From the NCBI GenBank assembly GCA_951828535.1, contig OX639990.1:607300-671299 (forward strand): a stretch of DNA of 64,000 bases, read 5' to 3'. The DNA is from an uncultured Candidatus Entotheonella sp. Lineage in GTDB: Bacteria > Tectomicrobia > Entotheonellia > Entotheonellales > Entotheonellaceae. Positions within the stretch are counted from its first letter, which is position 1, and every line of letters begins with the position of its first letter. The position numbers and the translations under genes are program-made. Positions 11,466-60,690 of the stretch are shown here, in pieces. The notes beneath the pieces are model-generated. The model was not told the origin of the DNA and made no database searches. It saw only the letters and a list, made by a program, of their open reading frames with translations.

Positions 11466-13517
11466 CTACTTGAAGAAAAAGGTTTCGGGGCGCGACGGCG
11501 CTGGCGTCATACCATCCGGGCTGTTGTATTGCCGACCCGGAGAATTGCCCAGGCGATTGCTGACGATTCGCACCCCCATGCCCGCCGGGGAGAGGCCGAC
11601 CGTGCCGAGGGCCCATTGCTGCTCGACAGCCACGCGCCAAATTTCTTTGCCAATCTCGATACGCTGCGCATCAGGGACTGTAAATCCCTGTTTCCAAAGC
11701 GCCATCAGTTTTTTCATGGGGGCAGTAGGCTCTCGGCCCTGCACCCCGTTGGTGCGGAACCAGCGACTCCATAGGGGCCCGATGTTGGAACCGCCGAGGC
11801 CGCTGGGGCTGAATGGAAAGAGATGCGCCGGGAAGGTAAAGGGGTGTTCGGTGCCGTCGTTCTGCCACAGGTGGATCTGAAGCTCATTGGCACCCACGCG
11901 TGTAATCGCCAGACTCCGTTCGATTTCATTGACGTCTGCCTGAATGCCGATTTTGCCCCATTGCTCCCGGATCATTTCCGCAATCTGCGTGAACTGCAGG
12001 AACTGGCCCCCGACCGTGGTCATTTCGAGGCGCAAGCGACCCTTGCCATCCGTCCGCAGGCGGTAGCCCTGGCTGTCCTTGCGAGTCAGTCCCAAGGCAT
12101 CCAGCATCTGATTGGCCCGCTGCGGATCGTACGTCGAGTGCATCGTACGGTACTCCGGCCCTGGATTATACGGCGACGATTCGGCCAGCACTTGTGACCC
12201 GGAGGTGCCGAGGCCCAGCCAGAAGGCCTCGTTCAACTGCTCGCGGTCCATCCCATGAGACAAGGCAATACGAAAGTCACGGTTTTGTAGCCAGGTGGCG
12301 ATTTCCGGGTCTGCATCATAGGTCTGGTTGAAGAAAAGACAGGCGTCGCAGCCACTGTCTGCCGGATCGAGGGAGACGGTATAATTGCCGCGCCGCTGGT
12401 TTTCCAGAAAGACCGGCAGCTTACTGATATCGATATGCCGGGACTGGTAATGATACTCGCCGGCAATGGCGCGCAGGTTGAGGACTTCGAGATTCTCTGC
12501 CAGCGTCAGGACCACCTTGTCGATATAGGGAAGCTGGTTACCGGCGCTGTCCACCATGTAGAAATAGGGATTGCGTTCGAGCACCCAAATAGGGGTGTTG
12601 ATCGGACTGGTGGTCTGCCAGGCGGTTACGGTAGGCAAGTCTGGATTGAGGGACCAATCGTTGATGTATCTCATGAAACTGGCCCAGTTATCGTACCCGG
12701 CGGCTTTGACCAATTGGTCAACCGCTTCCTGCCCGACGTACCTGGGGTGAAACTGCTGCAGATAATGTCTGGGAGCAAAGCCGCCCATGAGACTGCGTCC
12801 CTGATAACTGTGGCCACCAACCGCCGTCGCACCTGCCAGCATATCGAGGAAGACGTAGTAGGGCTGGGAGAAGACAAATCGGATGGTACTATCGTCTACC
12901 TTCTCCATCCTGCCCGGTTTGTCATCAATGGCCAGAATGGGCGCTTTCGTCGGAACCAGCTCGTCGTGTTGGTAGATATCTTCGTACCAGAACATGAAGT
13001 CGTCCGCTGTAAAAGGATGCCCGTCAGACCACTTCATGCCACGGCGCAGAAAGATGGTGAAGACACGTCCGCCCTCCGAGATCTCCCACCCTTTGGCGAC
13101 ATTCGGCACGACGATATTCCCCGTGTAGTCCCAAAATAGGATCCTGTCGTGCCCACAACAACGGTAACCGTTCCAGAAGTCGGCGGGTCCGCTGAAACCG
13201 CGCCGCCAGATACCGCCGTAGTTGCCGATCTCCCGCACCGGTTCGATCACCAGGGGATCGGAGCCGATGCGCTCCTGTACCGGCGGCAGCTTGCCCTGCT
13301 GCACCAGATCGGCCAGAGCAGGCGCCTCCTGATATTGGCTGGGAAACCGCTCGCGGTCCGAGATCACCCGCGGTCCTTCCAGCCGGCCCATCAGCGTACC
13401 CCCGCCCTGTGCTGACGCCTGTCGCGTTACCCCACCACCTAGTGCCAGTGCAACGAGTGTTATGGTGAGGCAAACCAGGACGCCGTACTGCTTCCGCGGG
13501 AGCCATACCTTGCACAT
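11466..13517 (-). CDS. oppA: Extracellular solute-binding protein, family 5 (OppA-like)
   Basis: About 683 residues, longer than E. coli OppA. The signal peptide runs to about residue 37 (hydrophobic LTITLVALALGGGV, cleavage after ASA). The SBP_bac_5 core shows GWEISEGGRVFTIFLRRGMKWSDG and ends with a conserved C-terminal region. The start was set at the second ATG because AAAGGAG lies eight bases before it. First gene of the minus-strand oppABCDF operon. Long members of this subgroup occur beside OppC with a large insertion, as here. The transported peptide or glycoside is not evident. Confidence 0.92.
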   Translation of the reverse strand: MCKVWLPRKQYGVLVCLTITLVALALGGGVTRQASAQGGGTLMGRLEGPRVISDRERFPSQYQEAPALADLVQQGKLPPVQERIGSDPLVIEPVREIGNYGGIWRRGFSGPADFWNGYRCCGHDRILFWDYTGNIVVPNVAKGWEISEGGRVFTIFLRRGMKWSDGHPFTADDFMFWYEDIYQHDELVPTKAPILAIDDKPGRMEKVDDSTIRFVFSQPYYVFLDMLAGATAVGGHSYQGRSLMGGFAPRHYLQQFHPRYVGQEAVDQLVKAAGYDNWASFMRYINDWSLNPDLPTVTAWQTTSPINTPIWVLERNPYFYMVDSAGNQLPYIDKVVLTLAENLEVLNLRAIAGEYHYQSRHIDISKLPVFLENQRRGNYTVSLDPADSGCDACLFFNQTYDADPEIATWLQNRDFRIALSHGMDREQLNEAFWLGLGTSGSQVLAESSPYNPGPEYRTMHSTYDPQRANQMLDALGLTRKDSQGYRLRTDGKGRLRLEMTTVGGQFLQFTQIAEMIREQWGKIGIQADVNEIERSLAITRVGANELQIHLWQNDGTEHPFTFPAHLFPFSPSGLGGSNIGPLWSRWFRTNGVQGREPTAPMKKLMALWKQGFTVPDAQRIEIGKEIWRVAVEQQWALGTVGLSPAGMGVRIVSNRLGNSPGRQYNSPDGMTPAPSRPETFFFK

Positions 13518-50638: not shown

Positions 50639-51697
50639 TCAAGGCTCACTGGGGAAGGTAATCAGAACCGTAGGTTCATAGCGCACGTTGATTTGCGCGC
50701 CGGTTTGCAGGGGGGCATCGTGGGCGCAGAGGCCTTGCAAGTGGGCCCCGGAGGGAAGGCGGACAGTGTAGAGTTTGCGCGTGCCCTGAAAGGTAACCTG
50801 CGTTACCCGGGCGCGGGTGCCGTGACCGTTGTCGCACAGCGTGAGGCATTCGGGCGGAATCAGGAGTTCGATTTCGCGGCAGCCGTCCGGGACAGTGGGC
50901 ATGTCGGGGTTGAGGCGGACGGGACCCATTTCGGTCACGATGCAGTGGTCGCGGATTTCGCCGGGTAGGAAGTGCCCCAGGGCGAGGAACTCGGCGACGA
51001 AACGGGTGCAGGGGCGCTGCACGATGGCCTCCGGGGTGTCGTACTGCACGACGCGGCCCTGATCGAGAATAGCGAGCGTGTCGGCAAGGCTAAGGGCTTC
51101 TTCCTGATCGTGGGTAACGAGAATGGTGGTCATGTCCGTACGCCGCAAAACGTCCTGCATTTCCTGCCTAAGCTGGCGACGCAGGTTGACGTCCAGATTG
51201 CTGAACGGTTCATCGAGCAGCAGGAGTTGCGGACCGGGAGCCAGAGCGCGAGCCAGAGCGACGCGTTGCTGCTGGCCGCCGGAGAGCTCGTGCGGATAAC
51301 GTTCGGCCATGTCCTGCAGACCCACCAGTTGCAGCAGGTCGGCAAGGCGGCGGTCGCGGTGGGTAGCCGGGCGGCGAAACAGGCCAAACACAATGTTTTG
51401 GGCCACCGTCATATGCGGGAAGAGGGCGTAGTCTTGAAACACCATGCCAATGTGGCGTTTTTCCGGCGCCACCACGTGGCCGGGACGACTGACCAGTTGG
51501 CCGCCCAAGTGAATCGCACCGGCGTCGGGCTCCTCGAATCCCGCGATCAGGCGCAACAGCGTGGTCTTGCCGCAGCCGCTGGGGCCAAGCAGGCAGACCA
51601 TGGCGCCGGGTTCGATGCGCAGCGAGACGTCCTGCAGCACCGGCACGCCGGGCTCGAACGCCTTGCCGATTGCCTGCAGCGATAATACCGGGGTCAT
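50639..51697 (-). CDS. fbpC: Ferric-iron ABC transporter ATPase
   Basis: 352 residues. Walker A GPSGCGKTT, signature LSGGQQQRVALARAL, Walker B LLLLDEPFSNLD, followed by a TOBE-like regulatory domain (about 245-350, with ECLTLCDNGHGTRARVTQVT). The ATG overlaps the permease stop by four bases. The FbpC/AfuC subgroup drives uptake of Fe3+ delivered by FbpA. Confidence 0.9.
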   Translation of the reverse strand: MTPVLSLQAIGKAFEPGVPVLQDVSLRIEPGAMVCLLGPSGCGKTTLLRLIAGFEEPDAGAIHLGGQLVSRPGHVVAPEKRHIGMVFQDYALFPHMTVAQNIVFGLFRRPATHRDRRLADLLQLVGLQDMAERYPHELSGGQQQRVALARALAPGPQLLLLDEPFSNLDVNLRRQLRQEMQDVLRRTDMTTILVTHDQEEALSLADTLAILDQGRVVQYDTPEAIVQRPCTRFVAEFLALGHFLPGEIRDHCIVTEMGPVRLNPDMPTVPDGCREIELLIPPECLTLCDNGHGTRARVTQVTFQGTRKLYTVRLPSGAHLQGLCAHDAPLQTGAQINVRYEPTVLITFPSEP

Positions 51698-53322
51698 GCC
51701 GTGTTCCTTTCCACACTGCCGTATGACAGCGCGAAAGCCAAGAGGGGAAGCGTTACCAGAATCAGCAGCAACGCCGCCGGCGCCGCCTGGGCGTAAAATT
51801 CCTCGCTCGTTTCGATCCAGATACGCACCGCCAGGGTGTCAAAACCGACAGGACGAAGCAACAGCGTGGCAGGAAGTTCCTTCATCGCGTTGACGAAGAC
51901 CAGAACCCAGCCGGTGATCAATCCCGGGCGCATGAGCGGCAGCGTGACCCGCCACAACACCCGCCAGAGGGGAACTCCCGCGCAGCGCCCGGCTTCCTCA
52001 AGCGCGGGGGTGATCTGGTGCAGCGCCGCCTCCCCGGCCTGTAAACACTGCGGGAAGAAACGCACCATGTAGGCCAGCACGACGACCGCCACGGTCCCAT
52101 AGACCGGAGACATCAGGTGCGCTGTGCAGAAGATCAGACCCAAGGCGACGATCGGTCCCGGCAACACGTAGCCGGCGTAGGCGGCATGCAGTAACAGGCT
52201 GTGGCCGCGACTCGGACGCCGCAGGGCGACGTAGGCCATCGGCACGGCGCAGGCGACGGCAACCGTAGCGGCCGCGGCAGCGCCCAGGAAGCTGTTGCGC
52301 GCGTAGCCCCAGAAGGCGCCGTCCAGAGCGCCCTCGCTGATGTGGGTCGCGGCCTGCACGCCCAGGTATGCCACCGGGACGCCAAAGGCCAGCCCGAACA
52401 GAGCCATACAGGCGCAGCATGCCAAGGCGGCATGCCAGCGCGTCAGCGCCGCGCGGCTGCCGGGACGATATCCCGCGGTAGTCTGAAAGAACCGGCTACG
52501 GCGGCGAAAATGGCGCTCAGCCGCAAAGAAGGCGAGGCTTAGCACCACCAGCATCAGACTCAGGGCGGCGGCGCCCATCAGGTCGTAGCGCCCGGTCATC
52601 TGCACGTACACCGCCCGCGTGAATGTCGAGTAGCGCAGAATCGACACGGCGCCGAAGTCGGCCATGACATACAGGCAGACGAGAAATAATCCCGCCGCAA
52701 CCGCTGGCCGCTGCATCGGCAGCACCACACGCAGCCAAGCGCGCCAGCGCCCCGCACCGGACAGCCGCGCGGCCTCCTCGTAGGCCACGTTGGTCCGCAG
52801 GAAGGCGGCGCGACTCAACAAATAAACGTACGGATAGGTGGCGAGGCTGAGGATCAGCACAGCGCCGGGAAATGAATCGTACAAAGCCGGCAACTGAGCG
52901 TCGGCTCCCAGGACCCGCTGCACAAGGGGCCGCAAGGGACCCCAATAGGCGAACATCTCCGTATACACATAGGCCATGATGTAGGGCGGGATGCCGAGCG
53001 GCGCCGCCAGCAGCCAGGTCCACACCCCGCGTCCGGGAAAGTCGTAGCGCACCACCAACCACGCCAGACCGACCCCCCATACCAGAGTCACCGCGGCCAC
53101 CCCCGCCGCCAAACGCAGCGTGTTGAACAACAGTTCCGGCACCCGACCCTGCCATAACTGCACCCACACGTCGCCCGACACCAGCACGGCATTGCCCACC
53201 ACGTAGGCCAGCGGCATAACGATGAGCAGTGCCACGACCAACGCGATCAGGCTCAGCGGCTTGGGATGCCATAGGCCGGCATGGCGCGGCCATGAAGCCT
53301 GGTCAGTAGCAAGCCCGTGCAC
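51694..53322 (-). CDS. fbpB: Ferric-iron ABC transporter permease (fused, about 12 helices)
   Basis: 542 residues with two permease modules in one chain. EAA loops are VAYEEAARLSGAGRWRAWLR (first half) and PALEEAGRCAGVPLWRVLWR (second half), and KELPATLLLRPVGFDTLAVR near the end is the FbpB/AfuB signature. Three bases follow fbpA, and it overlaps fbpC. Confidence 0.92.
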   Translation of the reverse strand: MHGLATDQASWPRHAGLWHPKPLSLIALVVALLIVMPLAYVVGNAVLVSGDVWVQLWQGRVPELLFNTLRLAAGVAAVTLVWGVGLAWLVVRYDFPGRGVWTWLLAAPLGIPPYIMAYVYTEMFAYWGPLRPLVQRVLGADAQLPALYDSFPGAVLILSLATYPYVYLLSRAAFLRTNVAYEEAARLSGAGRWRAWLRVVLPMQRPAVAAGLFLVCLYVMADFGAVSILRYSTFTRAVYVQMTGRYDLMGAAALSLMLVVLSLAFFAAERHFRRRSRFFQTTAGYRPGSRAALTRWHAALACCACMALFGLAFGVPVAYLGVQAATHISEGALDGAFWGYARNSFLGAAAAATVAVACAVPMAYVALRRPSRGHSLLLHAAYAGYVLPGPIVALGLIFCTAHLMSPVYGTVAVVVLAYMVRFFPQCLQAGEAALHQITPALEEAGRCAGVPLWRVLWRVTLPLMRPGLITGWVLVFVNAMKELPATLLLRPVGFDTLAVRIWIETSEEFYAQAAPAALLLILVTLPLLAFALSYGSVERNTA

Positions 53323-53325
53323 GGT

Positions 53326-54387
53326 CTAGTCCAATCCAACCTTGTCGATCAACCCAATCGCCTTGTCGCGGCTGGCGTGCGCCATCGACAGATTGACCGG
53401 CGCGATCTTGATGCGGTCGCGCGGAACGACGGCCTCATGGGCAGGAACGCGCGAGTTGACGGGATACTCGTAGTTGACCGCCGCAAATATCTGTTGGCCG
53501 GCGGGAGAAATCAGGAAAGCCATGAATTCCTGAGCCGCCGCCGGGTTCTTGGCTGCCTTAAGAACGGCGGCGCCGGCAACCGTGACCACGGCGCCCATTT
53601 GGCCGTCCTGCTGGTCCGGTATCAGGATGTTCAGCGGCGCCTCCGGTTCCTTGGCTTTATGACGGTAGTAGTAATAATGATTCACGTAGCCCAGGGGAAA
53701 CTGCCCAGCCGCCACGGCCGAAACCACCGGCGTGTGCTTCGGCAGCACCCGGCCCTCCGAGTTGGCCTTGAGGCCGCGCAGGAACGCCTCGGTGGCCGCC
53801 TCGCCCTGCAGCGCATAGATGGCGCTGAGGCCGCCGATAAACGACTGGTTGCCGCTCGTCACCGTGCCCACCTGATCCTGCCATTTCGGATCGGCAAGCT
53901 CCAGCAGCGAGGTGATGGCACCGGGCTGGATCATGCCGGTGTTGTACACGATGACCCGCAGGCGCGCCGAGAATGCCAGCCAGGTATCATCCACAGCGCG
54001 AAACTCGGGGGCGATCTGTATCAGCGTCGGTGCAGTCACCGGCGCCAGCAAACCGTGGCGCCGCGCCTCCTGCAGCACACCAACGTAATTGGTAATGAAG
54101 ACATCCGCCGGGCTACGCTCACCTTCCACCCGCAGCTTGGCCAGCAACGCACCAGAGGCACCCGTCTGCACCTGCACCGCGATACCTGTCTGCTTCGTAA
54201 AAGCCTCCAACACGGGCTTGGTGAATCTCTCTCCCCGACCGGAATAGACGGTCAGCGTTTGCGACAGGGCGATCACCGGCCAGCCGATGAGCGCCAGCAG
54301 GGTCAGAGCGATCAGGCCCCGCAGCAGAGCGCCCCGCCGCGCCGCTGCAGTTTCACGAGCAAAATGGGCCGCTCTTCTATCAGGCAT
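53326..54387 (-). CDS. fbpA: Ferric-iron-binding periplasmic protein
   Basis: 353 residues. A long N-terminal region (about 1-42) has a membrane/signal segment (LIALTLLALIGWPVIALSQ). The mature part starts LTVYSGRGERFTKPVLEAFT, the FbpA opening. The iron-binding Tyr pair lies in LGYVNHYYYYRHKA (about 233-246), and PVNSRVPAHEAV is near the end. GGAGGGAG precedes the ATG. First gene of fbpABC, 67 bases downstream of the Fur-like operator at 54455-54469. Confidence 0.92.
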   Translation of the reverse strand: MPDRRAAHFARETAAARRGALLRGLIALTLLALIGWPVIALSQTLTVYSGRGERFTKPVLEAFTKQTGIAVQVQTGASGALLAKLRVEGERSPADVFITNYVGVLQEARRHGLLAPVTAPTLIQIAPEFRAVDDTWLAFSARLRVIVYNTGMIQPGAITSLLELADPKWQDQVGTVTSGNQSFIGGLSAIYALQGEAATEAFLRGLKANSEGRVLPKHTPVVSAVAAGQFPLGYVNHYYYYRHKAKEPEAPLNILIPDQQDGQMGAVVTVAGAAVLKAAKNPAAAQEFMAFLISPAGQQIFAAVNYEYPVNSRVPAHEAVVPRDRIKIAPVNLSMAHASRDKAIGLIDKVGLD

Positions 54388-54454
54388 GGGTTTCGACTCC
54401 CTCCACAGAGTGGGATAAGCGGGTGGGTGGGCATTACGGGTATTATTATGATGT

Positions 54455-54469
54455 TGAGAACCGTTTTCA
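54455..54469. promoter_or_regulatory. Fur-like operator between fbpA and the Fur-fusion gene
   Basis: TGAGAACCGTTTTCA, inside the 17-base near-palindrome TTGAGAACCGTTTTCAA. It differs from the site at 50231-50245 at two positions. It sits in the divergent intergenic region, so one protein could control both directions. Confidence 0.65.
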
Positions 54470-54631
54470 AGAACAAAACACGGAGTGTCCTGCGCCAGGC
54501 AACTGAACGGGCTGAGCCGTCCGGGCCCCTCGCTTGACCCGTTTCAACCGCCTTAAGTACAATAGCGCCTTCCGCGTCGCGTGTTGGGAACGGTCAAACA
54601 ACGACGTCTACCCCGCCAAAAAGGTATCCTC

Positions 54632-55582
54632 ATGCCTGATGAATTCGAGATTTTCGAAGACTATCTCCGCAGCCAGAACCTCAAACATTCCAAACCCCGC
54701 AGCGACATTCTGGAGGTGTTTCTCGTCTCCAAGGGGCACTTCTCCGCCCAGGAACTGCACGAGCAGGTTCGCCAGAAGAGCCCGCGCGTTGGCTTCGCCA
54801 CCGTCTACCGCACCTTGCGGCTTCTTGAGGGCTGCGGCCTGGCGCGTTCCATGGACTACGGCGACGGCACCCAACGCTACGAGCCCAACCGCTTCGAGCA
54901 TCACCACATCATCTGCTCCTCCTGCAACCGCACCGTCGAGTTTCTCAGCCCGGAGTTGGAATCCCTGCTCCGTCAGGCGCAACAACAGCACGATTTCACG
55001 CCGCAATCCCACGCGGTGCGCATCCTCAGCGTGTGCACGGACTGCAAGAAGGTGGCGCCGCCGTCCAGCCGCCACGGCACAGGCAGGGAACTGGAAGTCA
55101 TCCTCGCCCGTGACGCTCTGGAAATGGCTATTACCAATGAGCAGCAGGGCTTGCATTTTTACAACCATGCCCTGGAGGCCACGGGTGACGCCATGACGCG
55201 GGAGGTTTTTTCACGCCTGGCGCTTGAGGAGAAGGAGCACCTGGAAGTATTGCAGGCAGAGTTTGACACCCTGCGGCAGAGCCACGCCTGGCTGGACGAC
55301 GAACCGGCGTTGTTGCAGTTCGATTACGAACGTCTTGAAAGCATTTTCCCGAAAGGCCGTGAGCACATCCGGCAAATGGTGCTCTCGGCCAGTCCCACCG
55401 AAGCCCTGCAGGCGGCCATGGACGCTGAGCGCCGCTCGTACGAATTTTTCCGCCACTACGCCAACCAGGTCGACAAGCCGCAAGGCCGGGCCATCTTCGA
55501 GCAGTTCGCCAAAGAGGAAGAGCGGCATCTGACGGTGATTCGTGAGGCGTATGACGAATTACAGGCGCAAGCCCGACAGTAA
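54632..55582 (+). CDS. Fur-family regulator fused to a rubrerythrin-like di-iron domain
   Basis: 316 residues in one unbroken frame. Residues 1-140 are a complete Fur repressor: winged helix with recognition helix GFATVYRTL (54-62), metal cluster HHH (90-92), and structural-zinc cysteines CSSC (95-98) and CTDC (135-138). After a short linker, residues 155-312 form four helices with the rubrerythrin/ferritin pattern. E164/E170, E200-x-x-H203, E266/E271 and E296-x-x-H299 supply the expected E...ExxH...E...ExxH ligands. No rubredoxin Cys4 is present in that half. Start at the ATG 54632; AAAAAGGT precedes it. It is divergent from fbpABC with a Fur-like operator between them, so it probably controls iron uptake. 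The di-iron half could sense or consume O2/peroxide or buffer iron (inference). Confidence 0.88.
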   Translation: MPDEFEIFEDYLRSQNLKHSKPRSDILEVFLVSKGHFSAQELHEQVRQKSPRVGFATVYRTLRLLEGCGLARSMDYGDGTQRYEPNRFEHHHIICSSCNRTVEFLSPELESLLRQAQQQHDFTPQSHAVRILSVCTDCKKVAPPSSRHGTGRELEVILARDALEMAITNEQQGLHFYNHALEATGDAMTREVFSRLALEEKEHLEVLQAEFDTLRQSHAWLDDEPALLQFDYERLESIFPKGREHIRQMVLSASPTEALQAAMDAERRSYEFFRHYANQVDKPQGRAIFEQFAKEEERHLTVIREAYDELQAQARQ

Positions 55583-55657
55583 ATCCCTCAGGCGATGCAC
55601 ACGTTTGCCCACCTGTCGGTCCCTAGTGCTCAATCCACCCCGGTAAAGGAGACAGAA

Positions 55658-56857
55658 ATGAACAACGCACACGTGCGACGACCCATCACCCGCCGCAGTT
55701 TGCTGACGGGCCTGACGGCGCTTGGCGCTGCAGCATCGCTGGGACAGGGCGTTTCGGTCCTGGCGCAGACCGATGAGGCGGTGCGCATCGGCGTCCTGCT
55801 GCCGCTTACCGGCGACGTCGACAGTTATGCCCGCCAGATGCGCATGGGCATTGAAACCGCAGTGGCAGAAATCAACGACGCCGGCGGCGTGCTTGGCCGC
55901 CGGCTCGAAACGGCGTACCGCGATTCGGAAACCACCCCCAGCGTTCTGCCCGGCCATTGCCGGGAACTCGTGACGGATTGGGGCGCCGCCGCCATTATCG
56001 GCCCGTGGGCGGCGGCCGGGCGCCGCTACGCCGCCCGCGCGCTGGCAAAATTCAATGTGCCGCTCCTGAACGCCACCAATCACGAAGGCGGGTTTTGCAA
56101 TCCGGCGTTGTTCTCCCTGGGGCCGACCATGGCCCACGACAGCCAGCCGCTGGTGCGTTACCTGGATGCGTCCGGGGCCGGCAAGAAGTATTTCCTCCTG
56201 GGCTCGTATCCAAGCTGGCAAAACAGCATGTTCCGGCGCCTGCGCTTCACCATCGGGCCGCTCGGTGGTCACGTCCAAGGACAGGCGCTGACCGATTACG
56301 GCGAGCGCAACTTCCGACCCGTCATTCGCTGGATTCAGGAGAGCGGCGCGGAGGTGGTGATGTTCTGCGTGACCCGCCACCATGGCCGCGAGTTCATCCA
56401 TCAAGCGCGTGAGATGGGCTTGCTGGAGCAAGTGACGATCGGCTGGATCGGCTTTAACGAGACCCTGACCGACGGCCTGGGAGCCGACGAGTTGGCGCGT
56501 ATTGTGACCACCACGCCGTTTGTTGCCAGTGACACCGAGGGTGGCGTGCCGGCCTTTGTGGCAGGCGTCCGGCGGCTGCACGGTTCTGAGGTACCGGTCG
56601 GTTACATGGCGCTCACGCACTACAACGCCGTGAAGGCCCTGCAGGCGGCCTGGAATCAGGCCGGCGACCTCGGCGCGGCGGCGGCCATGAACAATTTGCG
56701 CGGACTGGGCTTTGTGTCGCCAACCGGTCCGGTCACCATCGACGCCGGCACGCAGCACGCTGCCATGCAGGTGATGGTCGCGCGGGGTGTGAACGGCGGC
56801 CTGGCCGTGGTGGAACGCCTCGGCAACGTCGCCGCCACGCCCGGTTGCGGGGTCTGA
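55658..56857 (+). CDS. Tat-exported ABC solute-binding protein (Peripla_BP_6, amide/branched-chain amino-acid type)
   Basis: 399 residues. Twin-arginine signal HVRRPITRRSLLTGLTALGA, mature near LAQTD. The Leu/Ile/Val-BP fold has VRIGVLLPLTGDVDSYARQM, GRRLETAYRDSETTPSVLP, then GPWAAAGRRYAARALAKFNV and TNHEGGFCNPALFSLGPTMA. Nearest in style to urea/short-chain-amide receptors (FmdD/AmiC). AAAGGAGACAG before the ATG. No permease genes near; the next two genes on the strand follow by 23 and 46 bases, suggesting a three-gene operon. Confidence 0.85.
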   Translation: MNNAHVRRPITRRSLLTGLTALGAAASLGQGVSVLAQTDEAVRIGVLLPLTGDVDSYARQMRMGIETAVAEINDAGGVLGRRLETAYRDSETTPSVLPGHCRELVTDWGAAAIIGPWAAAGRRYAARALAKFNVPLLNATNHEGGFCNPALFSLGPTMAHDSQPLVRYLDASGAGKKYFLLGSYPSWQNSMFRRLRFTIGPLGGHVQGQALTDYGERNFRPVIRWIQESGAEVVMFCVTRHHGREFIHQAREMGLLEQVTIGWIGFNETLTDGLGADELARIVTTTPFVASDTEGGVPAFVAGVRRLHGSEVPVGYMALTHYNAVKALQAAWNQAGDLGAAAAMNNLRGLGFVSPTGPVTIDAGTQHAAMQVMVARGVNGGLAVVERLGNVAATPGCGV

Positions 56858-56880
56858 ACGGTTGAACAAGGAGAACATCC

Positions 56881-57411
56881 ATGAGTCGTCTATTTGGCAG
56901 CATTCTGCAGAACGGTTTTGTGGTGCGCGACATCGAAGCCGCCATGCGTCATTGGATAGAGGTGCTTGAGGTCGGGCCGTGGTTCTACTTCAAGCGCATC
57001 CCGTTCATCGACTTTCGTTACAAGGGCGAGCCGTCGCCGGTGGACGTGTCGCTCGCCCTTGCCAATTCGGGCAATTTCCAGGTGGAGCTGATCCAGCAGC
57101 GCAACGACGCCCCGTCGTTGTACCGCGACTTCATCGCCGCCGGGCATGAGGGCTTGCAGCACGTCGGCTACGGCACGCATCAGTTCGACGCCGACGTGGC
57201 ACGCTATGTGGAGGCCGGGTACGAAATCGGCCATTCCGGCAGCGTGGGCGGACGCGGAGCGTTCGTGTATCTCCTCACCGAGAGCCATCCCGGGACGCTG
57301 GTGGAGCTGTTTGACATGAGCAGTGGGCGCGAGGAAGTGTTCGCAAGCATCGCCGAAGCGGCACGTACCTGGGACGGCAGCGATCCGATTCGTACCAGCC
57401 TGCCGACCTAG
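56881..57411 (+). CDS. VOC-superfamily (glyoxalase-like) protein
   Basis: 176 residues. Opens with GSILQNGFVVRDIEAAMRHW, the first beta-alpha-beta-beta-beta module, and closes with the second (EGLQHVGYGTHQFDADVARY and GTLVELFDMSSG). Possible metal ligands are the H of LQHVGYG and the E of LVELFD. The Glyoxalase_4 group includes epimerases and lyases of small acids. AAGGAG before the ATG. Middle gene of the cassette; it may process the product of the aminotransferase. Confidence 0.8.
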   Translation: MSRLFGSILQNGFVVRDIEAAMRHWIEVLEVGPWFYFKRIPFIDFRYKGEPSPVDVSLALANSGNFQVELIQQRNDAPSLYRDFIAAGHEGLQHVGYGTHQFDADVARYVEAGYEIGHSGSVGGRGAFVYLLTESHPGTLVELFDMSSGREEVFASIAEAARTWDGSDPIRTSLPT

Positions 57412-57457
57412 CTGAGTGGATCACTCCAACTCTTACACGGACAGAAGGAGAGCAGGC

Positions 57458-58756
57458 ATGGCATTGGCTCGGTCAGCGGATCATGAGGACCTGATGGCGC
57501 GGGCGCAGCAGTATTTTCCCGGCGCTTCCAACGGTAACGCGGCATTGTCGGGAGAGCACAGCTTTGTGATTGCCGGCGGCCAGGGGGCGCACGTTTATGA
57601 CCCGGATGGCCGCCGCTGGATCGATTACCTGTTGGGCTCCGGCCCGATGATCGTCGGCCATGCGCACCCTGAGGTGAATGCCGCGGTGCGGGAGCAACTC
57701 GACAGCGGCTCGACGTTTTTCAACCTGAACGACAAGGCGATCGAACTGGCCGGCGAGATCATCGAGGCGGTGGCTTGCGCCGATCAGATTCGGTTCACCT
57801 CCACCGGTTCTGAGGCCACCTTCTTCGCGCTGCGGGTGGCGCGCGCCTTCCGGGGGCGCGACAAAATTCTCAAGTTCGAGGGCGGCTACCACGGCAACCA
57901 CGACTATGCCGTCATGAGCACCGAGGGGCAGGCCGCATCGGATGGTCCGTACGGCGTGCGCGGCTCGTCGGGCATTCCCGAATGCCTGGAGCAGGAAGTA
58001 TTGATTGCACCGTTCAACGACCTCGAACGCACCACGGCGATCATCGAAGTCCATCACGACGACTTGGGCGCAGTGATTATCGAGCCGTTTCAGCGCGCCT
58101 TGTCGCCGCTGCCCGGATTCCTCCAAGGGCTACGTGAGGTAACAGCGCAGTACGGCATTCCGCTGATTTTCGACGAGGTGGTGACGGGATTCCGTTTCGC
58201 CTACGGCGGGGCGCAGGAATACTACGGCGTGGTGCCGGATCTGGCCGCTATGGGCAAGATCATCGGCGGCGGCTATCCATTGGCTGCGGTGATGGGTAAA
58301 ACGAAATTGATGTCGTATTTTTCGCAGCCCGACGCGCGTGGCGTGCCGGTCGCCCAGGTCGGCACGTTGAACGGCAACCCGATCGCCGCGGCTGCCGGCC
58401 TGGCGACGCTGAAAATCCTGCGGCGCCCCGGCTCGTATGAACGCCTGCACGAGGTGGGCCAGCGCCTGCGGGATCAACTTCAGGCCACGCTGCGGGAGCA
58501 CGACGTGCCGGGGCAGGTGCTGGGCGAGGGGCCCGTCTTTCATTTGATGTTTACGGACCAACCCGTGCGAACCTACCAAGACTCCCTGACGAGCGACGCC
58601 AACAAGAATCGGGTTTTTCACGATGCGTTGATGGCCACCGGCGTACTGAAGCCGTCGGCAAAGGGCTACGCATCGCTAGTGCACAGCGATGCGGATCTGG
58701 CCGAAACGGAAAAGGTGTTCGACGCCGCCATGGCGCAGGTGGCCCAGTTGTCATAA
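57458..58756 (+). CDS. Class III aminotransferase/aminomutase (HemL-like)
   Basis: 432 residues from the ATG at 57458 (AAGGAG upstream). PLP motifs: HVYDPDGRRWIDYLLGSGPM, RFTSTGSEATFFALRVARAF, KFEGGYHGNHDY, IPLIFDEVVTGFRFAYGG and AAMGKIIGGGYPLAAVMGK with the Schiff-base Lys in GKIIGGG. Close in style to glutamate-1-semialdehyde 2,1-aminomutase, but the setting suggests a catabolic amino-donor enzyme rather than heme synthesis. Third gene of the cassette; its stop overlaps the end of menC on the other strand by six bases. Confidence 0.87.
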   Translation: MALARSADHEDLMARAQQYFPGASNGNAALSGEHSFVIAGGQGAHVYDPDGRRWIDYLLGSGPMIVGHAHPEVNAAVREQLDSGSTFFNLNDKAIELAGEIIEAVACADQIRFTSTGSEATFFALRVARAFRGRDKILKFEGGYHGNHDYAVMSTEGQAASDGPYGVRGSSGIPECLEQEVLIAPFNDLERTTAIIEVHHDDLGAVIIEPFQRALSPLPGFLQGLREVTAQYGIPLIFDEVVTGFRFAYGGAQEYYGVVPDLAAMGKIIGGGYPLAAVMGKTKLMSYFSQPDARGVPVAQVGTLNGNPIAAAAGLATLKILRRPGSYERLHEVGQRLRDQLQATLREHDVPGQVLGEGPVFHLMFTDQPVRTYQDSLTSDANKNRVFHDALMATGVLKPSAKGYASLVHSDADLAETEKVFDAAMAQVAQLS

Positions 58757-59860
58757 CGGTTGTCGGTGGCGTTTAACGGCTTCCTCGTCGAGCCGCACCC
58801 CGAGCCCGGCGGCGTTGGGCCGTTGCATGCGGCCCTCACAAACGGTCAGGGGCGTCGTTAGCAGGTCGGTCGTCAGAAGCGCTCCGGTCGCCAGGCCGCA
58901 GGCCAGGTCGGGGGAGGGCCGGGTAGCCGCGAGGTGCAGCGCCGCGGCGATACCGATGCCGGCATCCAGAGTCGTCGTCACGATGCACGAGACCCCTTGG
59001 GCCTGAGCGTGCTCGATGATCTGGCGGGCCGGCCGCAGCCCGCCAACCACCATCGGCTTGATCACCAGGACCTGAGCCGCACCGGCTTCCAGCACACGCT
59101 CTGCCGCCGCAACACTATCGACGTCCTCATCGGCGGCAATGGGTGTGCGCACGGCCGCGAGCACCTGCCGCAGCGCCTGAACATCCCCGCAGGCCACCGG
59201 CTGCTCAACGAGTTCGATGTCATACGGTTCCAGGGCCTGAATCGTACAAATGGCCTGTTCCACACCCCACGCACCATTGGCGTCGAGGCGCAATTTCAAC
59301 CGATTCCCGATAGCATTCCTGACTGCCGCGACGCGTTGACGTTCCGCCTCCACACCCGCCGCCATACCGACCTTCAACTTGACGCAGGGGAAGCCCGACG
59401 CCCGTGCCTTTGCCGCGGCATCGGCCGCTGACGCCGCGCTGGGAAGCGCGATGGTGGCGTTCACCGGCACCCTCTCGGAGGATTCCCTCTGCAGCCACAA
59501 CGCCACCGGCGTGTCCGCCGCCTGTGCCAGCACGTCGCACGCTGCCGTGTCGAGACCACAACGCACGGCAGCGACGGCGGCGGGGTGCAGATGGCCCACC
59601 GGCCTCATAACGTCCATCATTTCTTCCAACCGTTTGCCGGGCGACGATACCTGCACAGCCGCAAGAAGCGTTGCCACATCGGACCACGCCCGAGAAGCGC
59701 TGCCCGGTATCGGCGCCGCTTCGCCTAGGCCAACCAGGCCATTATCCGTATGCAGTTGGAGCAGGACGCCGCGACGCTCGGTCTGGATGCCGTGCGCGGT
59801 GGCAAACGGCCGGCGAAACGGTATGCAATACGGCGTGCAAGCGAGTCTGGCCACTCTCAT
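58751..59860 (-). CDS. menC: o-Succinylbenzoate synthase
   Basis: 369 residues, enolase superfamily. N-terminal capping domain (PFRRPFATAHGIQTERRGVL), catalytic KLKVG (Lys of KxK), metal ligands in RLRLDANGAWG-type KLRLDANGAWG, DIELVEQP and PIAADEDVDS, and second Lys in VLVIKPMVVGG. Dehydrates SHCHC to o-succinylbenzoate. The ATG overlaps the menH stop by four bases. It is the last gene of the men operon; menB, menE and menA are not in the window. Confidence 0.88.
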   Translation of the reverse strand: MRVARLACTPYCIPFRRPFATAHGIQTERRGVLLQLHTDNGLVGLGEAAPIPGSASRAWSDVATLLAAVQVSSPGKRLEEMMDVMRPVGHLHPAAVAAVRCGLDTAACDVLAQAADTPVALWLQRESSERVPVNATIALPSAASAADAAAKARASGFPCVKLKVGMAAGVEAERQRVAAVRNAIGNRLKLRLDANGAWGVEQAICTIQALEPYDIELVEQPVACGDVQALRQVLAAVRTPIAADEDVDSVAAAERVLEAGAAQVLVIKPMVVGGLRPARQIIEHAQAQGVSCIVTTTLDAGIGIAAALHLAATRPSPDLACGLATGALLTTDLLTTPLTVCEGRMQRPNAAGLGVRLDEEAVKRHRQPL

Positions 59861-60690
59861 GGCAAGGGCTCGGATGGGATTGGGGCGTGCGCCTGCAGAA
59901 AGTCTCGCAGCGCGGCATCGAATACCACGGGGCGCTCCAGATGGATGGCGTGGCCGGCGTCCGCCACGATGCGTACGCGGCTACACGGCAACCTGTTCGC
60001 CATCTCATTGGCCAGTTCGCAGTATTTGGCATCCAGCGCCCCCGCCAACAACAGGACGGGCAGACGCAGGCCCCGCAGACGTTGCAGAACCGGCTTCTGC
60101 ATACCAGCGCCGAGACCCTCCAGGCTATTGGCAAGGCCCTCAGCGGTGTGTTGCAGGCGTTGGTCCCGCAATACCTGCTGGGCCGTCTCCGGCAGACGCG
60201 ACTGGCTGGCGAAAAGTGGCAGCCCCTGCCAGTAATCCGCGAAGGCCGCCACGCCTTCCTTTCTGATTCGTTCCGCCAGCCTCACGTCCTGCATCACACG
60301 ATCCTTCCTGTCGGTCGGATTCGCAATGCCGGGGGACGCGCTTTCCAGCACCAACGCCCACAGGCGTTCAGGTGCCTGCAAGGCGACTCGCATGGCGACC
60401 CGGCCGCCCATCGAATAGCCCACAATAGCGCAGCCCTGTACGCCCAAGTGATCCTGGATCGCCAGGACATCATCAACGCAAGCTTCCATGCCATAGCGAT
60501 GCATGGCGGCCGGTGCGTCGGAGCGGCCATGGCCCAAGAAGTCGACGCGAACAGTCGTAAACGCCCTCAGGGCCGCCAGATGTGGCGTCCAGGTCTCGCT
60601 ACTACCGGTAAAGCCGTGCAGGAAGAACACCGCAGGGCCGCTTCCTTGCATCTCGGCGTGATAGGTCACGCCATTCACGGTGAGGCGCAT
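59857..60690 (-). CDS. menH: SHCHC synthase (alpha/beta hydrolase)
   Basis: 277 residues. Oxyanion region FFLHGFTGSSETWTPHLAAL, nucleophile elbow GYSMGGR (Ser about 93), Asp in ALDAKYCELA and His in AGHAIHLERP. Removes pyruvate from SEPHCHC in menaquinone synthesis. It overlaps the menD end by 16 bases, so the coupling is tight. Confidence 0.88.
   Translation of the reverse strand: MRLTVNGVTYHAEMQGSGPAVFFLHGFTGSSETWTPHLAALRAFTTVRVDFLGHGRSDAPAAMHRYGMEACVDDVLAIQDHLGVQGCAIVGYSMGGRVAMRVALQAPERLWALVLESASPGIANPTDRKDRVMQDVRLAERIRKEGVAAFADYWQGLPLFASQSRLPETAQQVLRDQRLQHTAEGLANSLEGLGAGMQKPVLQRLRGLRLPVLLLAGALDAKYCELANEMANRLPCSRVRIVADAGHAIHLERPVVFDAALRDFLQAHAPIPSEPLP

Follow-up and report, generated by a model that had tools for sequence, protein, structure and literature searches.

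A Fur-type repressor joined to a ferritin-like di-iron domain in Entotheonella-like bacteria

Results

In this study, we analyzed a stretch of DNA of 64,000 nucleotides (the window) from the genome of an uncultured Candidatus Entotheonella sp., which is a single contig of 3.6 Mb. On the plus strand of the window, a single open frame runs from an ATG at 54632 to a stop codon ending at 55582 and encodes a Fur–ferritin-like fusion protein of 316 aa. The protein comprises a Fur domain (residues 1-140, 54632..55051), a variable linker (residues 141-155, 55052..55096) and a ferritin-like four-helix domain (residues 156-312, 55097..55567). A Pfam scan of the whole protein detected FUR at residues 15-131 (E 1.1e-31, 110 bits, cut-off 23.1) and Rubrerythrin (PF02915), with the best stretch at 257-312 (43.7 bits, cut-off 22.8); the first helix pair of the C-terminal half gave weaker ferritin-family matches. 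Both halves also matched Pfam when they were scanned separately (FUR, E 1.5e-31). A previous sequence-only reading had claimed a complete Fur domain and an E...ExxH...E...ExxH unit in one frame. The residues it named, namely GFATVYRTL, Cys 95/98/135/138, E200xxH203 and E296xxH299, were all found at their positions, and to these we add E170 of helix A and E266 of helix C.

The minus strand carries genes for an FbpA-like Fe(III)-binding ABC protein (53326..54387), an FbpB-like permease with two BPD_transp_1 repeats (51694..53322) and an FbpC-like ATPase with a TOBE domain (50639..51697), the latter two assigned by family match. The FbpA-like protein matched PDB entry 7li0, an Fe(3+) ABC substrate-binding protein, at E 2.9e-48 and Haemophilus FbpA (1d9v) at E 2.4e-47, and every top hit among solved structures was an Fe(III)-binding protein (E 1e-48 to 1e-40). 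NCBIfam models point instead towards phosphonate or thiamine transport for this system, though with scores that stay under their cut-offs. The proposal of a divergent fbpABC-type transporter was borne out, since the closest solved relatives of the substrate-binding protein bind Fe(III) (E 3e-48). Synteny with the fusion gene held in part: the genes are adjacent in the window's genome (G000) and in G001 and about 3.5 kb apart in G002, but the linkage does not extend to G003. In G002 the fusion gene lies downstream of ApbE and porin genes, which diverge from fbpAB across the same palindrome (described below). What seems to be a separate metabolic unit lies downstream of the fusion gene at 55634-58756; it encodes a Tat-type amide/urea-like ABC binding protein, a 176-aa protein that matches no family and a HemL-like class-III aminotransferase. 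On the minus strand, 58751-60690 holds genes for MenC-like (o-succinylbenzoate synthase) and MenH proteins, the MenC match being near its cut-off.

The fusion was present at full length in all four genomes of the family that were examined, which represent three genera, with identities of 96% (G001, on the uncultured Candidatus Entotheonella chromosome OY282375.1, here L003), 65% (G002) and 64% (G003). Against L003, dN/dS was 0.076 for the Fur half and 0.067 for the ferritin-like half; against G002 the values were 0.14 and 0.13. The linker showed a dN/dS of 0.3-0.8 and a deletion of two residues in G002 and G003. By these ratios both halves are under purifying selection, and the 15-residue linker is the sole loose part. 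An alternative is that two genes were joined by an annotation or assembly artefact, with a frameshift or join at residues 140-155. For this explanation we found no supporting point and consider it vanishingly improbable. It is excluded because the same in-frame fusion occurs at full length in four genomes and three genera at 64-96% identity (G001/L003, G002 and G003 besides the window's genome), because Ka/Ks is well below 1 (about 0.07 for both halves against L003) and because the loose part is confined to 15 residues. None of the di-iron ligands was lost in a homologue; all are invariant in the four sequences. At the sequence level, the frame and its homologues together show that a Fur repressor and a ferritin-like di-iron domain, each of them complete, share a single chain and are conserved as a unit.

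To determine the distribution of the fusion, a profile of the four proteins was searched against 386 genomes (about 260 families) and against three further phyla (77, 45 and 195 genomes). Both domains were matched only in the four family members, and all other matches ended near residue 145, thus covering Fur only. Two of the wider searches gave zero matches at the thresholds used, and the same query had a separate positive control. Outside the family, none of the roughly 690 further genomes covered by these searches had a FUR and ferritin-like fusion. G004, the only additional member of the class among the genomes examined, had FUR-family proteins in unfused form only. Among the plasmid matches listed, all covered Fur only and none reached 80% of the query, and IMG/VR gave no match to the fusion. 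The fusion looks like an invention of the Entotheonella-like family, with the 690 genomes taken as a sample. Among the papers searched, none describes a fusion of Fur to a rubrerythrin or ferritin-like domain. Unfused pairs, in which Fur/PerR-family frames are directly followed by rubrerythrin-like frames with stops between them, were seen at G038:C148:6680-7267, G034:C11:105-671 and G005:C27:32395-33272.

The Fur half is a winged helix with the recognition-helix motif GFATVYRTL and aligned with the Fur proteins of Campylobacter jejuni (6d57/4ets, E about 4e-23) and M. gryphiswaldense. H36, E84, H90, H92 and E103 as well as C95, C98, C135 and C138 are invariant across the four family sequences. 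We take the former to be candidate ligands of the regulatory site and the four cysteines to form the structural Zn site. The HHDH motif reads E/Q-H-H-H, with E/Q89 and H91 in place of the H and D of C. jejuni Fur, so that the fusion probably differs from classical Fur at the third metal site. Fur and PerR are distinguished by two residues, one in the recognition helix and one at the peroxide-sensitivity position, and PerR-type proteins have Asn61 and Asp104 in B. subtilis numbering (PMC8638851). With the positions mapped via the Fur alignments and the VYRTL motif, four of four fusions have Arg and Glu, not Asn and Asp: R60 of the recognition helix and E103 are invariant, and E103 aligns with the Glu of the C. 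jejuni and M. gryphiswaldense proteins. Judged by these residues, the repressor half is Fur-type and not PerR-type.

A profile search detected two FUR-family proteins in the window's genome, the fusion and one divergent second protein. The second FUR-family proteins of G002 and G003 carry the PerR-type Asp, and that of G002 had its top scores against PerR models, though below their cut-offs. Because the only other FUR protein of the window's genome is divergent and those of G002 and G003 are PerR-type, the iron repressor (Fur) of each of the four genomes is best sought in the fusion. The peroxide biology of rubrerythrins, and the PerR/Fur genes that adjoin rubrerythrin-like genes in other genomes, would also fit a PerR-type peroxide regulator joined to a rubrerythrin peroxidase. 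This is very unlikely in view of the Fur-type E103 and R60, the palindromes at iron-uptake genes, the lack of a rubredoxin domain and the fact that G002 and G003 each encode another, PerR-like protein that has Asp where the fusion has E103. PerR identity was rejected on the residues and the target genes.

For the C-terminal half alone, AlphaFold with a four-row input predicted four long helices with a crossover (pLDDT 87.6, pTM 0.81). Structure matches at Z 16-18 included the Dps-like PA4880, thioferritin, mini-bacterioferritin, rubrerythrin, P. furiosus 2FZF, the COG1633 protein 2OH3 and bacterioferritins; this range exceeds the level at which the structure-comparison tool warns for helical bundles. 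A plain Foldseek search with the same model gave E-values no better than 0.002. The full-length model (pLDDT 65.8, below 50 in the Fur dimerisation region) was too poor to place the two domains relative to each other. Three of the four ferritin-like domains contain no Cys and the fourth contains one, so a rubredoxin-like Cys4 site is absent. In classical (D. vulgaris) rubrerythrin the helix-C Glu is followed three residues later by an extra Glu, and at this position all four fusions have Ser269. The designation as rubrerythrin-like, made in the sequence-only reading, thus stands at the superfamily level (four helices, E/ExxH/E/ExxH) but goes no further; rubrerythrin proper was rejected on the absence of the rubredoxin centre and the extra Glu. 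The C-terminal half resembles the COG1633/archaeoferritin-like branch more closely than rubrerythrin.

The six di-iron ligands, encoded on the plus strand, are E170 on helix A (codon at 55139), E200 and H203 on helix B (55229 and 55238), E266 on helix C (55427) and E296 and H299 on helix D (55517 and 55526), all of them invariant in the four sequences. By its residues this is a six-ligand site of the bacterioferritin/archaeoferritin type. The archaeoferritin motif is E-x6-Y/ExxH/E-x6-Y/ExxH (PMC3401498). The fusion has E170-x6-Y177 and both ExxH elements, and its helix C reads E266-x6-F273, with Phe for Tyr.

A Fur-box-like palindrome of 17 bp, TTGAGAACCGTTTTCAA, lies at 54454..54470 and has counterparts at fbpA in G001, G002 and G003. 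The sigma-70-like fbpA promoter TTGAAA-17-AATAAT (54442..54470, minus strand) has its -35 within the palindrome, and the same layout was found in L003 and G002. The fusion gene has a sigma-70-like promoter of its own, TTGACC-18-TACAAT (54534..54563, plus strand), with the same hexamers in L003, G002 and G003. An operator between the two genes, as assumed in the sequence-only reading, is plausible, but the palindrome belongs to the fbpA promoter. Since a separate TTGACC-N17/18-TACAAT promoter-like pair precedes the fusion gene in all four genomes, this gene is probably expressed independently of the palindrome. Autoregulation via the palindrome is not favoured: about 65 bp separate the site from the fusion promoter beyond it, and the region upstream of the fusion gene in G002 and G003 yielded no palindrome.

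With one mismatch allowed, the palindrome pattern occurred 2, 6, 2 and 2 times in the four genomes, and the reversed-pattern control 0, 0, 0 and 1 times. Palindromes overlap or directly precede fbpA in G000, G001, G002 and G003, i.e. in three genera. Further palindromes of G001 lie between a TonB receptor gene and an hmuT-like gene (haem uptake) and before an ApbE gene that is followed by a porin-like gene (identified as porin by eye). The remaining ones are at a DUF2325 gene (G000 and G001), a pentapeptide-repeat gene (G003) and a gene without family match (G001), and two more, inside long frames, look like chance occurrences. The layout at iron genes is as expected for a Fur regulon, and these palindromes are predicted operators. 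At the start of the DUF2325 coiled-coil gene, the Fur-box-like sequence is TTGATAATGATTTTCAT in both genomes of the genus (L062 8261, L060 4332); we know of no iron-controlled DUF2325 protein. In G003 the perfect palindrome TTGAAAATGATTTTCAA (L064 9808) precedes the gene of a 745-aa pentapeptide-repeat protein. The haem-uptake cluster of G001 also contains a ferritin-domain gene (PF00210, L060 12278-12736), about 0.6 kb from the palindrome at 11645.

Discussion

Coupling of iron and oxidant responses in Fur-controlled bacteria is usually attributed to separate proteins, i.e. Fur, PerR or OxyR, Dps and ferritins. The protein described here suggests that the switching of iron import and the reading or managing of the cell's iron and oxidant state are combined in a single one. 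Once Fe(II) occupies the regulatory site of its Fur half, the dimeric fusion would very probably bind the TTGA-N-AA-Y-N-R-TT-N-TCAA palindromes and repress fbpA and other iron-uptake promoters, where it would block RNA polymerase; at fbpA the -35 is overlapped by the palindrome. It is likely, then, that fbpABC is repressed in an Fe(II)-dependent manner. The C-terminal domain may well bind two irons, and its iron or redox state may change the repressor. It would then work like a tethered ferroxidase of the archaeoferritin type or like an iron sensor. Plentiful Fe(II) would fill the di-iron site, and O2 or H2O2 would oxidise the filled site to a stable di-ferric form. This state would change the DNA binding of the repressor or its share of Fe(II), and iron uptake would thereby answer to iron and oxidant status together.

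We give about an even chance to an Fe-dependent iron-uptake repressor whose output or metal loading is tuned by the tethered di-iron/ferroxidase domain, the tuning being the step that we infer. In its favour we count the fusion in four of four family genomes, the invariant Fur and di-iron ligands, the purifying selection on both domains, the Fur-type R60 and E103, the predicted ferritin-like fold, the near-archaeoferritin motif, the unfused pair of P. furiosus (see below) and the palindromes at iron genes. Against it we count the variable linker, which argues against a rigid interface, the altered residues of Fur site 3 and the helix-C Phe in place of the archaeoferritin Tyr. More specifically, occupancy and redox state of the di-iron site (diferrous, diferric or peroxide-reacted) might set DNA affinity as an allosteric input, a tentative prediction that we place somewhat short of an even chance. 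The Fur half itself is Glu-type and hence peroxide-insensitive, so that a second, redox-active site would give the protein a response which this half does not have. If the allosteric reading is true, two separate iron sites, one a fast Fe(II) site and the other di-iron and redox-sensitive, would be integrated within a single chain by a bacterial Fur. There is precedent in the plant BRUTUS domains: in the reduced state their iron binding is reversible, and O2 and H2O2 oxidise them (PMC12022348); by analogy, di-iron domains can report iron and react with these oxidants.

The main rival is that the ferritin-like domain provides no signal input and serves as a local ferroxidase, iron buffer or peroxide sink, which shields Fur and nearby DNA from Fenton chemistry, or loads and unloads the iron of Fur. 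The complete Bfr/archaeoferritin-type ligand set and the Dps and Bfr relatives that head the fold list point in this direction, as does archaeoferritin itself, which oxidises and stores Fe(II) (PMC3401498). A repressor present in few copies would be a weak sink, however, and the chain lacks a rubredoxin electron donor, so that we regard this role as doubtful. Next comes a mainly structural role, in which the C-terminal domain, with metals of structural function, holds the protein together by adding a dimer or higher-order contact. Both Fur and the structural match 2FZF are dimers, and archaeoferritin oligomerises when iron is added (PMC3401498). Nevertheless, a purely structural role would not need all six di-iron ligands to be invariant at 60% domain identity, which makes it distinctly unlikely.

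In the fusion, a repressor and a di-iron domain were brought together by evolution, and neither has decayed over at least three genera; the question of iron/oxidant coupling thereby becomes testable on one purified protein. The fusion is a new domain architecture in the Fur family, apparently restricted to Entotheonella-like bacteria. With C. jejuni Fur (4ETS/6D57) it shares the whole N-terminal domain, the Cys4 zinc site, the regulatory-site residues, the VYRTL helix and the operator at fbpA; it differs in the extra ferritin-like domain of 157 residues and in E/Q-H-H-H for HHDH. With rubrerythrin it has in common the ferritin-like di-iron fold (1RYT, Z 16.6) and the PF02915 match, whereas the C-terminal rubredoxin FeS4 domain is missing and Ser269 replaces the extra helix-C Glu. 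The archaeoferritin/COG1633 proteins (PF1196, PF1190 = 2FZF, TM1526 = 1VJX, 2OH3) are alike in the four-helix fold, the two ExxH elements, the helix-A E-x6-Y and the lack of rubredoxin, but they stand alone, whereas here the domain is joined to a repressor and helix C has E-x6-F. In Pyrococcus furiosus the archaeoferritin gene is clustered with a fur gene, the two being the neighbours PF1195/PF1196 (PMC3401498), which by analogy are the same two functions in unfused form. This suggests that Fur and ferritin-like gene neighbours elsewhere may cooperate.

In genome G047, a Fur domain is joined in frame to a FeoA domain (L014 1252-1953, minus strand; Pfam FUR 7e-35, FeoA 2e-22). This protein is likewise a Fur with an additional iron-related C-terminal domain, but here the additional domain is the SH3-like one of FeoA and not a di-iron bundle. 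In Staphylococcus aureus, the output of Fur is likewise changed by a second iron-binding protein, its Fe(II)-binding partner Fpa (YlaN), but this is a separate protein and not di-iron ferritin-like (PMC11559061). Finally, plant BRUTUS/BTSL and mammalian FBXL5 follow the same idea, with a four-helix di-iron domain on a protein that regulates iron uptake. These are eukaryotic E3 ubiquitin ligases, and their domain has the unrelated hemerythrin fold. For FBXL5 and BRUTUS, the di-iron iron sensors of eukaryotes, the fusion would be a counterpart in bacteria.
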